Shown: positions 11,456 through 15,820 of the stretch, piece after piece | Position numbering within the stretch: the stretch's first letter is position 1 | Layout of the letters: the number at the start of each line of letters is the position of its first letter | DNA from: Ruania zhangjianzhongii | GTDB taxonomy: Bacteria > Actinomycetota > Actinomycetes > Actinomycetales > Beutenbergiaceae | Length of the DNA: 64,000 bases | Direction: 5' to 3' | Assembly: GCF_008000995.1 (NCBI RefSeq) | Contig: NZ_CP042828.1 | Coordinates: forward strand, 1,240,001 to 1,304,000 | Notes under the pieces: generated by a model | The model's database searches: none | The model's input: only the letters and a program-made list of their open reading frames with translations | What the model was told of the DNA's origin: nothing | Made by a program: the position numbers and the translations under genes

Positions 11456-11525
11456 ATGTCCATGCTGAGGCGTTAGGGCCGAAGTGAACAGTACGGACAT
11501 TTGTGTCCCCAGAAGGGGAGTGGCG

Positions 11526-11894
11526 ATGCGTCTTCCGGTGCAGCGGGCGGTCGAGGTGTGCCCGGTGGAGGTGGCGGTCTCCGTGCTCGGTGGCACGTGG
11601 AAGCTGACGCTGATCAAGCATCTCGCGGAGGGGGAGCGGCGGTTCGGGGAGCTCGGCCGGTTGGTGCCGCTGGCGAACCGAAAGACCCTGACCCGCCAGC
11701 TTCGTGAGCTCGAGGAGGACGGCGTGCTGGTGCGCACTGTCCATCCCGAGGTGCCGCCGCGGGTGGAGTACGCGCTGACCGATCTCGGCCGGAGCCTGAT
11801 GCCGGTGGTGGCGGCGATGGATGCGTGGGGCGGACATTTCGCGCAGGTGAGCGGTCTGGTGGCTGCGACCGGCGACGAGCAGACGACCGTCTGA
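11526..11894 (+). CDS. HxlR-family transcriptional regulator
   Basis: A 122-residue winged-helix regulator with the HxlR hallmark CPVEVAVSVLGGTWKLTLIKHL, followed by RRFGELGRLVPLANRKTLTRQLRELEEDG and wing PPRVEYALTDLGRSLMPV. The single Cys near the N-terminus is a potential redox sensor, as in YodB/HypR, though unproven here. The ATG at 11526 follows AGGGGAG at good spacing; an upstream in-frame ATG at 11484 is less likely. It is divergent from the quinone-reductase-like gene, with 70 bases between the starts. Its end is followed within a few bases by the repeat into which IS110 inserted. Confidence 0.9.
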   Translation: MRLPVQRAVEVCPVEVAVSVLGGTWKLTLIKHLAEGERRFGELGRLVPLANRKTLTRQLRELEEDGVLVRTVHPEVPPRVEYALTDLGRSLMPVVAAMDAWGGHFAQVSGLVAATGDEQTTV

Positions 11895-11900
11895 GGACCT

Positions 11901-11932
11901 CCTGAACATCTGAGGGCCGAAAATTCGGTACT
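11901..11932. repeat. Left half of a hairpin repeat interrupted by IS110
   Basis: CCTGAACATC...CCGAAA..TCGGTACT matches the intact copy at 10560 onward at about 27 of 32 positions and breaks off at TACT (11929-11932), where the IS begins. The right half resumes at 13509. Confidence 0.75.
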
Positions 11933-12011
11933 GACCCGAAAATCGTAGGTTCGGTGTGCAGGGTGGTTCGCCCGGGGTCGTGACCCGGGTGTTGGGGTGG
12001 GTTGGTGGGTT

Positions 12012-13295
12012 TCAGGCGGCGGCTTCGAGGGTGACGTAGTAGCCGAGTTGTTGTAGGGCGCGGACGTGGTTGTCGCGGCGCCGGTCGGGGCGGATGCGTT
12101 GTTCGTAGTAGTCCGGACCGAGGTCGTTGAATCGGGCCTGGGGATCGGACAGGAGGTGCCAGATGATCACGAGCATGGAGCGTCCCACGGCGACGTTGGC
12201 GCGCAACTTCCCGCGCCGGCGTGCCAGGCGGCGGTAACGCTCGCCGAGGAAGGTGTGGGTCCGGGCCGCGTTCACGGCCGCATCGCCCAGGGCGCGGGCG
12301 AGGTATCGATCGCCTTTACCGGTGGCGTTCTTGCCGTGGGACTTACCCGCGGACTGGGAGATGACCGGGGCGTATCGGGCCCACGAGCACAGGTGCCCAG
12401 CGGTGGGGAAGCGGCTCATGTCCACCCCGATCTCAGCGATGATCGCCGCGGCCGCATGGCGTCCGATCCCGGGAATCTCATCCAGGGATGCGACCTGATC
12501 GGCAAAAGGGACCAGCTCGGCCTCGATCCTGGCCTCCACGGCAGCGATATCAGCATCCAGACGCTCCACCCGGGACATCATCGTGGCCAGCAGGAAGGCA
12601 TGGTGGTCGGTGAAGAACCTGGCCGTGAAGGCCTCTTCCAGAGCGGCCCGCTTGGCTGAACCTCGCAGGCTGCCTTTGGCCAACTCGGCCAGAGCCTTCG
12701 GATCGCGCTGACCATCGATGAGCGCGTGCAGCATCGCTCGCCCGGAGACCCCGAAGATATCCGAGGCCACGACCGAGACCTTGACCCCGGCAGTATCGAG
12801 GACCTTCTCCACCCGCTGCTTCTCCGCCGTGCGCGCGGTAATCAGATCGACCCGATAGCGCGTCAGATCCCGCAGCACCCGAATCGGTGCCGGTGGAACG
12901 AAACTCGGTCGCAGCATCTTTCGCTCAGCAACCTTGCACAACCAAGCCGCGTCCAGCTTGTCGGTCTTGGCCCGCCCGGGCAGGTGCTTGACATCGCGAG
13001 CGTTGACCACCCACACGGTGAACCCCGCCTGCTCCAGCAAATAGAACGGGGCCTTCCAGTAGTCCCCGGTGGCCTCCATCACCACCAGAGACACCTGCTC
13101 GCACCGGAAGTGATCACACATCGCCAACAACGAGCCCGTCATCGTGGAATAAGACTGGATCTCCTGGACCCGCCGACCCGACTCACCCGGGATCCGCACA
13201 CACGCGACCACCTCGGCCTTGCCCACATCCAGCGCGGCCACCCGCGCGACAACTACCTCACCATCATCAGCTTCCTCATACACCGCCACCACCAC
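12012..13295 (-). CDS. IS110-family transposase (DEDD recombinase)
   Basis: A 427-residue RNA-guided recombinase. The N-terminal RuvC-like domain shows the acidic residues in ALDVGKAEV, VVMEATGDYW and KTDKLDAAWL. A helical linker follows (RYRVDLITARTAEKQRVEKVL). The C-terminal Transposase_20 domain has the helix-hairpin-helix EIPGIGRHAAAAIIAEIG, the Ser-containing PVISQSAGKSHG (probable catalytic Ser region) and KGDRYLARAL. Length is normal for the family. The frame begins with consecutive GTG codons (13295, 13292, 13289), so the exact start is uncertain. The long upstream non-coding part fits the IS110 group rather than IS1111, where the RNA lies downstream. Confidence 0.95.
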   Translation of the reverse strand: MVVAVYEEADDGEVVVARVAALDVGKAEVVACVRIPGESGRRVQEIQSYSTMTGSLLAMCDHFRCEQVSLVVMEATGDYWKAPFYLLEQAGFTVWVVNARDVKHLPGRAKTDKLDAAWLCKVAERKMLRPSFVPPAPIRVLRDLTRYRVDLITARTAEKQRVEKVLDTAGVKVSVVASDIFGVSGRAMLHALIDGQRDPKALAELAKGSLRGSAKRAALEEAFTARFFTDHHAFLLATMMSRVERLDADIAAVEARIEAELVPFADQVASLDEIPGIGRHAAAAIIAEIGVDMSRFPTAGHLCSWARYAPVISQSAGKSHGKNATGKGDRYLARALGDAAVNAARTHTFLGERYRRLARRRGKLRANVAVGRSMLVIIWHLLSDPQARFNDLGPDYYEQRIRPDRRRDNHVRALQQLGYYVTLEAAA

Positions 13296-13299
13296 CTCT

Positions 13300-13512
13300 G
13301 ACCAGAGAACCCGATAGGCGTGGCCGCCCGGGGAGGATCAGGCACCAACGAATCTGACCCGCGTGCTCGAAGCAACAATGAAGGGCCCACAACGACCTCC
13401 CAGCGTCCTACTCAGACACGGCGTCAACCACCAAAGTACCGCGACGTAAACAGGCGACCACAACCCGATTTTCCGCCCGGAAGGGCCTCAGCGACAGCCG
13501 AGCCCCACTACT
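13300..13512 (-). ncRNA. Predicted bridge/seek RNA of the IS110 element
   Basis: This non-coding part upstream of the transposase (read on the minus strand) holds a GCCC-TTCC-GGGC hairpin and two internal-loop candidates. Loop 1 has CGGTACT (plus 13435-13441, reverse complement), identical to the left flank up to the CT core, and TCTGAGTA (plus 13409-13416), complementary to the right flank TACTCAGA (13509-13516). Between them GGTG/CGCC can close an apical stem, and CGTC/GACG a basal one. Loop 2 has CGGGTCAG (plus 13354-13361), complementary to the element's own left end CTGACCCG (11931-11938), next to a GCT-TCG-AGC hairpin. This is the two-loop target/donor layout known for IS621. RNA ends are not determined. 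Confidence 0.7.
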
Positions 13513-13539
13513 CAGATGTGGGTTTGGTCCTCAGACGGG
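13509..13539. repeat. Right half of the hairpin repeat interrupted by IS110
   Basis: ACTCAGATG...GGT.CTCAGA.GG aligns with bases 10589-10617 of the intact copy at 22 of 29 positions, continuing exactly where the left half stopped. The ComA-like gene ends 11 bases further on. Confidence 0.7.
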
Positions 13540-13549
13540 TGTATCACCT

Positions 13550-14383
13550 CTACGGCGCGGGGTTGATCACTCGGCCCCAGGTCGACTTGTTCCCCCAGAT
13601 GTTCTGCCGTAGGCCCTCCAGCTGCAGGATCTGGGTGTGGTCGACGAACAGGTTCACCTCGTTGCCGTAGTTCTTCACGTACCACTCGAAGACCGGGCCG
13701 TCGGCGGCCTCGAACATGACGTTCTCCAGGCCGAGGCCGTTGATGATCGAGGCGGCCGCGCCGGTGTTCCACTCGGTGACGTTCTCGGTGATGCCCTCGG
13801 ACTCGATCATGATGATCGAGGCGCCGGCGTCCAGCGCCCGTTTGCCGCGGTCCACCAGGTCGCCGATGTCCTTCTTGCTCTCCGCAGCCAGCTCGGCCTC
13901 GCCGGAGTCGCCGCCGGAGCCGATCTGGATGCCGAGCTCGGGCTTGGCCTTCAGCCCGGCCTTGACGACTTTCTCCACCAGGCGCTCCAGGCCGGAGGTG
14001 GGCAACATGATGAAGCCGGTGGAGATCTCGATGGTGTCGAAGCCGACCTCCTTGGCCTCCTTCAGGTAGGCGTCGACCGCATCATCGCCGTAGCGCAGCA
14101 CGGTCTCGATCCAGCCGCCGGAGGAGACATAGGAATCATGAGCGTGGGCGATCTCGCTGAACGCCTTCACCTGCTCGGTGGGCAGCAGGGCGAACGAGCC
14201 GCCGGCCCACTTGATGCCGTCCACCCACTGCCCGGCGACGTCGAAGACGTCCTGCAGGTGGCGGGTGCCGAAGGTGTCGTAGTAGGGCGCACGGATCTCG
14301 GTGATCCCGTGGCTACGCGGTTTCGTCGGCCGGTAGGCGCGGGGGACGAAGTCGAAGGACACATCGTGTGCTGTGCGGGTCAT
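13550..14383 (-). CDS. ComA-like phosphosulfolactate synthase family protein
   Basis: A 277-residue TIM-barrel protein of the (2R)-phospho-3-sulfolactate synthase family (PF02679), which adds sulfite to phosphoenolpyruvate. Family blocks are present in order: RSHGITEIRAP, VDGIKWAGGSF, SSGGWIETV, FDTIEISTGFIMLP, ELGIQIGSGGDSGEAEL, AGASIIMIESEGITEN, NVMFEAAD and NLFVDHTQILQLEGLR. It starts after AAGGAG and follows an MmgE/PrpD-family gene, not the other coenzyme M genes (comB, comC). It is divergent from archaeal and Bacillus ComA at several motifs, so the substrate may differ. A role with the neighbouring dehydratase-like protein is likely but unknown. Confidence 0.82.
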   Translation of the reverse strand: MTRTAHDVSFDFVPRAYRPTKPRSHGITEIRAPYYDTFGTRHLQDVFDVAGQWVDGIKWAGGSFALLPTEQVKAFSEIAHAHDSYVSSGGWIETVLRYGDDAVDAYLKEAKEVGFDTIEISTGFIMLPTSGLERLVEKVVKAGLKAKPELGIQIGSGGDSGEAELAAESKKDIGDLVDRGKRALDAGASIIMIESEGITENVTEWNTGAAASIINGLGLENVMFEAADGPVFEWYVKNYGNEVNLFVDHTQILQLEGLRQNIWGNKSTWGRVINPAP

Positions 14384-14443: not shown

Positions 14444-15820
14444 TCAGGTGGTGCGGGTACTCGAGACGCTGGCGAGCGCAGCAGTGAGCGTCGCGGTCGG
14501 CTGGTGTTCCAGGTCGCGCACGATCGCGACGATCTCCTGGCGCAGGCTCGCATCGGCGAATGGGCTGGTCAGGCGGGTGAACTTGTCCTCGACGGCGTCC
14601 CATCCGGCGGGCTGGGAGTGGAACCCCTCGTAGGTGTGGTGGGTGGCCTGGAAGGTGGTGCCGTCGGTGAGGATGATCGTCAGCTCAGCGGGCATCTCGT
14701 TCGGGAAACGCGCGGAGAGGGCCTCGTCGGGACTGATGGCCACCTTGTGCAGCAAGGCTTGTACGTCACCTGCGATCACGCGCTCCGGGACGTACTGCGC
14801 CGGGGTGAGCTCACCGTCCAGCAGGGTGACGGCGAGCATCCACGGCAGGGAGTGGTCCGCCTCCTCCTTGGTGCGGACGGTGCGCTTGTCGCCCTCTTCG
14901 CCGCCGCCGATGATCGAGTAGGCGACGTCGAAAGTGGACAGGTCGATGGCGGCGATGTCCTCGACGCGGAATCCTTCCTGGCCGCGGACGTCCAGCGCCG
15001 CCTCCAGGGCGGACTGGGAGTGGATCTCGGCGTTGTACTTCTTGATGATGGTGCGGGTGACGTTCTCCAGATCCTCGGCGGACCAGTCGATCTGGAACGG
15101 GCCGGCGATGGAGTCCTTGAAGCCCTTATTGCCCTCGAACACCTCGGCGGGGCCGGTGATACCGCGTTGGGCGAGCAGTGCAGCGAACATGCCTTCTTTG
15201 GCCACCTGTGGGTAGGCGAGACCCTTCCAGTTGCTCAAGGACCCGGTACGGGTGACGCGCAGCGCGTTGTTCGCCGTTCCGGAGATAGCGATCGCGTGCG
15301 CGATCTGCTCGGCCGGCAGACGCAGCGCCTTGGCGGCTGCGGCCGCTGCGGCATAGGCGCCCTGGGTGGTGTGGTCGAAGCCCTTGGCGCGAACCGGGGC
15401 GACGTCGGACAGGCGGGTGTGCACCTGATAGGCGACCGCCAGCGCTGTGAGCAGCTCGGCGCCGCTGGCACCGGAGTGCTCGGCCGCAGCGAGCACCGCA
15501 CCCAGGTTGTCCGAGGGGTGGTTGGTCTCGCCCCTGGCCAGGTACGAGTCCATGAAGTCCAGGTAGCGGCTGAGGCCGGAGTTGTAGAAGGCGGCGCGTT
15601 CGGGGGAGGTCTTCCCGCCGCCGATCAATGTGGCGCTCGGAGTTCCGCCCAGATCGTCGACCAGGCCGCGGATGGCCCGCATCGGGGCAGCGTCGAGGGC
15701 ACCGATCGCCACCCCCACGGTGTCTAGTACACGGATCTTCAGCTGTTCCCGTGCGGTTGGGCTGAGCTGGTCGAGGCTGGCCCTCGCGGTGAAGTCCGCC
15801 AGCTCCTCTACCTCTGTCAT
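14444..15820 (-). CDS. MmgE/PrpD family protein
   Basis: A 458-residue protein of the 2-methylcitrate dehydratase / aconitate decarboxylase superfamily, with the all-helical domain first (ELADFTARASLDQLSPTARE, DTVGVAIGALDAAPMRAI, SRYLDFMDSYLARGETNHPSDNLGAVLAAAE) and the lid domain (residues about 270-400) after it. The conserved NHPSDN element near the active site is present. No methylcitrate synthase or lyase gene is nearby, so a propionate pathway is not supported. It starts after AAGGGAG, 60 bases upstream of the ComA-like gene in the same direction, so the two form an operon opposite a TetR gene. Confidence 0.88.
   Translation of the reverse strand: MTEVEELADFTARASLDQLSPTAREQLKIRVLDTVGVAIGALDAAPMRAIRGLVDDLGGTPSATLIGGGKTSPERAAFYNSGLSRYLDFMDSYLARGETNHPSDNLGAVLAAAEHSGASGAELLTALAVAYQVHTRLSDVAPVRAKGFDHTTQGAYAAAAAAAKALRLPAEQIAHAIAISGTANNALRVTRTGSLSNWKGLAYPQVAKEGMFAALLAQRGITGPAEVFEGNKGFKDSIAGPFQIDWSAEDLENVTRTIIKKYNAEIHSQSALEAALDVRGQEGFRVEDIAAIDLSTFDVAYSIIGGGEEGDKRTVRTKEEADHSLPWMLAVTLLDGELTPAQYVPERVIAGDVQALLHKVAISPDEALSARFPNEMPAELTIILTDGTTFQATHHTYEGFHSQPAGWDAVEDKFTRLTSPFADASLRQEIVAIVRDLEHQPTATLTAALASVSSTRTT

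Follow-up and report, generated by a model that had tools for sequence, protein, structure and literature searches.

The systems closest to the element analysed here differ in where the guide RNA lies and in the order of its guides. In the published scheme for IS621, the arrangement reads 5′-LT-core-RD ... LD-core-RT-3′ (PMC11208158, PMC11208160), and the text of PMC11208158 describes an RNA whose 5′ stem-loop is followed by a target loop at nt 34-98 and a donor loop at nt 110-177; its 5′ target guide spans nine bases and its 3′ target guide four, and a closing helix is unmentioned in that text. The IS1111 elements tested by Siddiquee et al., according to the text of PMC11187229, have their RNA downstream and, within it, the top-strand match on the 5′ side of the bottom-strand match, whereas ISEc21, an IS110 element, is described there with an upstream RNA and the reverse order. 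The same text notes exceptions in RNA position.

We have analysed 64,000 nt of Ruania zhangjianzhongii (GCF_008000995.1, NZ_CP042828.1, positions 1,240,001-1,304,000 of the forward strand), and "the window" hereafter means this whole stretch. Judging from sequence comparison, it very probably contains an IS110-family mobile element that moves by RNA-guided recombination via a bridge RNA, with a guide order that is the reverse of that in IS621.

Element, copies and insertion site

The element and its surroundings comprise the following features.

11933..13512, minus strand: IS110-family element, 1580 bp including one CT core, with ends taken from four near-identical genomic copies
11931..11932: CT core at the transposase-distal end, from copy comparison
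13511..13512: CT core at the RNA/transposase-proximal end, from copy comparison
12012..13295, minus strand: recombinase, 427 aa (Pfam PF01548 4.2e-28, PF02371 9.9e-18; NCBIfam NF033542 7.8e-77, above cut-off)
11887..11914: left half of an interrupted palindromic repeat, the inverted arm of 13511-13538, 79% complementary
13511..13538: right half of the repeat, pairing with 11887..11914; the repeat family is present at unoccupied sites

The host genome (5.1 Mb, two contigs) holds four full copies of the element, and their leaders are identical. Every copy lies at GGTACT/element/CAGA (written GGTACT|CAGA) while the flanks farther out are unlike each other, which fixes the ends of the element, with CT at 11931-11932 and at 13511-13512. 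A preliminary description of this locus covered 11929..13512; the copy comparison refines the ends of the element to 11933-13512. The copies differ at four positions (11943, 11952, 11992 and 12343), none in the leader. These SNPs occur in all four block combinations (TC/TT, GG/CC, TC/CC and GG/TT), a mosaic that suggests gene conversion or recombination among the genomic copies.

The insertion point lies between open reading frames. The surrounding frames encode a MarR-like regulator (11484-11894; RrpB/RrpA models), a protein matching a phosphosulfolactate synthase model (13550-14383) and a protein matching PrpD models (14444-15820), all below the respective cut-offs. The 10-mer GGTACTCAGA has 26 intact occurrences in the genome against 1 for a reversed control and, by eye, 24 of the 26 are inside REP-like nested palindromes, with two outside (L030, L042). 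The palindromes at these loci (L021-L046) form a REP/BIME-like family with arms GTCTGAGTACC ... GGTACTCAGAC; a search of the genome for a Y1 (RAYT) transposase as possible owner of the repeats found none.

The recombinase combines a PF01548 DEDD domain with a PF02371 domain carrying a conserved serine, as expected of the IS110 family, and its residues D23/E74/D112/D115 and S315 align with D11/E60/D102/D105/S241 of IS621.

A structured leader and its guide segments

The region upstream of the recombinase gene contains the predicted RNA, described by a covariance model (R1) built from 25 leaders, and the segments that match the target and the ends of the element.

13299..13510, minus strand: predicted bridge RNA region (R1 match 13300-13509, 146.5 bits, this leader being one of the model's 25 sequences)
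13404..13446, minus strand: target-loop arm, from the consensus structure
13332..13401, minus strand: donor-loop arm, from the consensus structure
13450..13462, minus strand: 5′ strand of the outer closing helix, 13 pairs, 12 of them with two-sided changes
13319..13331, minus strand: 3′ strand of the outer closing helix, partner of 13450..13462
13435..13441, minus strand: 5′ target guide CGGTACT, on the transposase strand the reverse complement of core plus transposase-distal flank
13411..13416, minus strand: 3′ target guide TCTGAG, identical to transposase-proximal flank plus core
13409..13410, minus strand: handshake-like 2-nt segment TA, equal to the element's first two bases
13354..13361, minus strand: 3′ donor guide CGGGTCAG, identical to the element's far end
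13376..13384, minus strand: place of a possible 5′ donor guide CCCTTCATT, negative in the covariation test
11931..11943, minus strand: far-end signature ATTTTC plus 5-nt donor match plus AG

By the measure of comparative folding, the leader is a conserved structured RNA. The RNAalifold consensus of the 25 leaders has 41 pairs, 25 of them with two-sided changes; 95.8% of cells are paired against 88.3% in shuffled alignments, and the covariation score is 0.383 against 0.232 when shuffled and at most 0.120 when slid. In this consensus the 13-bp outer helix encloses both the target-loop and the donor-loop arm, giving a three-way junction. The small GGTG/CGCC stem pointed out in the preliminary description is present in the alignment, as GGTC/GGCC in relatives. 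Folding of the single leader (z -0.96) is uninformative alone.

R1 was searched against 48 sources (without L076, L079 and L093). It matches the leader in 39 of the 44 relatives searched, at E 1.3e-8 or better, and gives none in L070, L096, L100, L113 and L125; in the whole host genome its matches are the four copies only. Weaker matches (E 3e-13 to 1e-4) lie in Streptomyces, Alicyclobacillus, Caballeronia and Chlorohelix loci whose recombinases are 39-43% identical, and R1 has no match in three IS621 loci, in L131-L133 or in L142-L146. At gathering score, Rfam models find nothing in the window and nothing in two relatives; the leader region has two Rfam matches below threshold, with E values of 1.2 and 1.5, which were taken as chance.

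Three segments had been singled out in the preliminary description as guides, and all three are present as placed, on the transposase (minus) strand: CGGTACT at 13441-13435, TCTGAGTA at 13416-13409 and CGGGTCAG at 13361-13354. Among 20000 dinucleotide-shuffled versions of the 215-nt leader, 274 contain CGGTACT, 1625 TCTGAG and 571 GGGTCAG; CGGTACT followed by TCTGAG within 40 nt occurs in 3, and all three segments together in 0. Their joint presence is not expected by chance. Copies bearing the same segments at differing flanks had been named beforehand as evidence against a guide reading; all four genomic copies, with their identical leaders, keep GGTACT|CAGA and differ in the outer flanks, so the identical leaders do not refute that reading. 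The TA that ends TCTGAGTA is identical to the first two bases of the element and, in the window, also to target bases.

All 25 aligned leaders contain the motif GAAAAT unchanged (minus strand, 13468-13473 here), and ATTTTC or a close form of it stands at the far ends of relatives (11938-11943 here), so that the two make an asymmetric inverted pair. The IS621 leader also contains GAAAATCGG.

Covariation of guides and DNA in relatives

Relatives were taken from a scan of genome contigs as the best 80 of 280 matches, 14 of the 80 loci being Kibdelosporangium philippinense copies. Together with the window and four plasmid loci this makes 85 loci, in which the donor hairpin is recognisable in 43 and absent in 42; 31 leaders were aligned after removal of duplicates. 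For the leader-side boundary, an AG dinucleotide within a fixed range of 142-162 nt ahead of the hairpin was used, with the best candidate taken for own and permuted pairs alike. The tests left out L061, a near-duplicate of L054, and each omitted leaders without a boundary or a far end within the locus.

The 3′ target guide agrees with the transposase-proximal flank at 4.34 of 5 positions against 1.98 in permuted pairs (n=29), and the 5′ target guide agrees with the reverse complement of the far flank at 3.00 of 5 against 1.60 (n=22), in both cases with 0 of 20000 permutations. The signal of the 5′ target guide sits at two core-adjacent bases, the remaining positions being singly not significant. 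On the donor side, the 3′ donor guide matches the element's far end at 7.00 of 7 against 5.87 permuted (n=26, 0/20000). The handshake bases, the two that follow AG, agree in relatives with the element's first two bases (1.93 of 2 against 1.43 permuted in 29 leaders, 0/20000). For the other donor guide, described as weak in the preliminary description and placed at CCCTTCATT, covariation gives no support: length, offset and scoring were varied in 48 combinations, of which two fell under 2% and none was convincing. Of the guides first proposed, the target pair and one donor guide are supported, with the 3′ target guide the stronger of the pair in relatives, and the 5′ donor guide is unsupported.

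In many relatives the agreement of the 5′ target guide is poor, with 0-2 of 5 positions identical in 9 of 22 (using the better far end for L136). In K. philippinense, the near side reads GC[G/A]TTAG in all 14 copies while far-side bases vary; with the poor matches elsewhere, this means that the role of the 5′ target guide may be minor. The far flanks of three of the K. philippinense copies (L057, L059 and L067 among L054-L067) resemble another repeat, AACACG..TAACCACTCACGAG; apart from this, the far flank varies. In L136 the far end is duplicated in tandem, with two ATTTTCGGATTAG ends about 50 bp apart.

The near-flank signal extends beyond the sequences used for the model. For 38 R1 matches outside the model set, a sample that includes L091 (a self-overlap), a few repeated copies and four loci shared with the first covariation test (L071, L090, L102, L108), agreement with the near flank is 5.58 of 7 against 3.15 permuted (0/5000); without L091, 24 of 37 reach at least 6 of 7. 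R1 scans of 248 and 396 genomes gave matches in 9 and 13, the host genome included, and from these came 27 distinct held-out leaders, or 26 after dropping L155, which is identical to L068 of the model. Agreement with the leader's own flank is at least 6 of 7 in 15 of the 26 against 9 of 650 cross-pairs (mean 5.35 against 3.21, 0/5000) and lies below 6 of 7 in the other 11. Four copies in one held-out genome all have the near flank TGTGCAG.

In 87 leader clusters, the far-end signature, ATTTTC or a close form followed by five bases and AG, was found once in 51, not at all in the stretch examined in 35 and more than once in 1. In 47 of the 51 clusters, the element's own leader contains these five bases plus AG again in its 3′ half, with 25 distinct 5-mers and a permuted mean of 3.8 (maximum 12); the four failures are L104, L089, L130 and L121. 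Target-side evidence comes from Actinomycetota and Chloroflexota, and donor-side evidence also from Bacillota.

Guide order, alternative readings and a proposed mechanism

The element resembles IS621, to the extent of the published text on the latter, in its DEDD/RuvC plus Tnp-serine recombinase, in an RNA located in the upstream end with the target loop before the donor loop, in 5′ guides that end in CT and 3′ guides that end in AG, in the CT core, in handshake-like bases after the 3′ target guide and in a REP-type target. Its predicted guide RNA lies upstream of the transposase and its target-loop guides match both target strands around the CT core, as in IS621; in the donor loop, the 3′ guide is supported and the 5′ guide, undetected here, lacks support from covariation. 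It differs in the length of the recombinase (427 aa against 326 aa), in the additional helix closing both loops, unmentioned for IS621 in the published text, and in that its 3′ target guide, and not the 5′ one, has the stronger match. The main difference is that, as sequence comparison indicates, the guide order relative to the transposase is the reverse of that in IS621. In IS621 itself the 5′ guide matches the flank beside the RNA-bearing end (LT next to LE), and three IS621 copies agree with this: ATCGGGCCT, the 5′ guide in their leader, recurs in the near flank, which reads ATCAGGCCT in two of them and ATCGGGTCT in the third. The same IS621-like order is seen in L146 and L148, with near-flank repeats 72 and 64 nt apart and a CT core. 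In the present group, it is instead the 3′ guide that repeats the near flank, with an AG core and lying as a rule some 100 nt inside, or some 150 nt in a few, and the IS621 order tested on this group gives no signal (1.36 against 1.52 permuted, n=28; 1.17 against 1.28, n=23). The preliminary description had ventured that this element may show a mirrored arrangement; the covariation in relatives, the RNA structure and the comparison with real IS621 copies bear out the mirroring, which is common to the relatives and hence not a quirk of the copy in the window.

Compared with the descriptions in PMC11187229, and taking "top" to mean the transposase strand, the order of the matches is that of the IS1111 seekRNA elements (ISEc11, ISKpn4, ISPa11), in which the RNA lies downstream of the transposase and not, as the R1 match places it here, upstream. 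IS1111 elements also have subterminal inverted repeats of 7-17 bp at both ends, whereas a non-systematic inspection noticed only the asymmetric GAAAAT / ATTTTC pair here. With ISEc21 as described there, the element shares the upstream RNA; the ISEc21 order is reported as IS621-like and is opposite here. The upstream R1 match and the 5′ position of the top-strand match therefore combine an upstream RNA with the order reported for IS1111, together with a 13-bp closing helix. Such a reversed-order upstream RNA is mentioned nowhere in the text passages of the literature searched, those of PMC12500396 and PMC12045711 among them; it could already appear in ISAar29, ISHne5 or ISPpu10, pictured in PMC11208160. 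That the IS110 of Streptomyces is a member of the present group is a guess.

Could the matching segments instead be binding sites (iterons) for the transposase, with the protein picking the target and the structured leader only regulating translation? The leader's direct repeats of both ends could serve in this way. The segments, however, sit in the loops of a covarying RNA structure and, from one relative to the next, vary in step with flanks and ends; the 5′ guide, moreover, corresponds to its flank in reverse complement. These points make iterons very unlikely. A bridge RNA in the ordinary IS621 order, transcribed from the complement of the transposase strand, would restore the usual polarity of the RNA relative to the attachment sites, but it is highly improbable: the complement folds far worse (-13.9 against -44.3 kcal/mol for the transposase strand), the predicted pairs include 132 GU against 9 CA cells, an excess to which the prediction of the structure on the transposase strand itself contributes, and guides on that strand would start, not end, with the core, unlike those of IS621.

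Chance or inherited similarity, in which the leader captured pieces of REP-like repeats or homologous recombination between repeats alone spread the copies, would fit the location of all four copies in one repeat family and the mosaic of their SNPs. It is contradicted by relatives with other targets in other genomes, held-out ones included, in which the same loop positions covary with the DNA, and is barely credible.

We thus favour a bridge RNA with a target loop and a donor loop, as first proposed for this locus and as now upheld by covariation in relatives and by RNA structure, its expression being predicted. The ends, copies, guide-DNA covariation, RNA structure and order are established at the level of sequence. 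The leader would be transcribed on the transposase strand to give the bridge RNA. In its target loop, the 5′ guide CGGTACT and the 3′ guide TCTGAG would pair with opposite strands of CGGTA-CT-CAGA inside the REP-like repeat; in its donor loop, the 3′ guide CGGGTCAG would pair with the transposase-distal end of the element. The recombinase would then exchange strands at the CT core. We infer transcription, RNA binding, circle formation and catalysis on this model. From the RNA's viewpoint, as in IS621, the left target would be CGGTA, the core CT and the right target CAGA, and the left donor CCACTA, the core CT and the right donor GACCCG. Seen in this way, the RNA-recombinase complex most likely works as in IS621. 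Since the left target seen from the RNA lies at the element's far end, the part that is flipped would be the direction of the recombinase-plus-RNA cassette between the attachment sites. That the 5′ donor guide goes undetected and the 5′ target guide is the weaker of its pair suggests that, unlike in IS621, the 3′ guides carry most of the recognition in the present group.

It seems rather likely that a large IS110 branch, that with long recombinases, uses a third and so far undescribed bridge-RNA architecture, defined by an upstream RNA, an IS1111-like order, a common helix with a three-way junction and a specificity mainly of the 3′ target guide. A reversed order with an upstream RNA would break the rule, drawn from few tested elements, that an upstream RNA goes with one order and a downstream RNA with the other. 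It would also enable guides to be read and targets predicted for IS110 elements that an IS621-based reading gets backwards, would offer a different recombinase-RNA scaffold for programmable recombination and would make guide order a marker of how bridge RNAs moved or flipped in IS110/IS1111 evolution.

A quick tree of 43 recombinases, computed without bootstrap and showing long branches, separates 38 long proteins from five short ones (L131, L146, L148-L150) with an SH-aLRT of 100. Guide order is resolved in the loci of three of the five short recombinases and of many but not all of the long ones; the repeats gave no resolution in L142-L145 among the long, or in L149 and L150. A TIGR-Tas endonuclease model has a weak match (7.3e-06), below its cut-off, to residues 240-335 of the recombinase in the window, which agrees with the structural link published between IS110 and TIGR-Tas.
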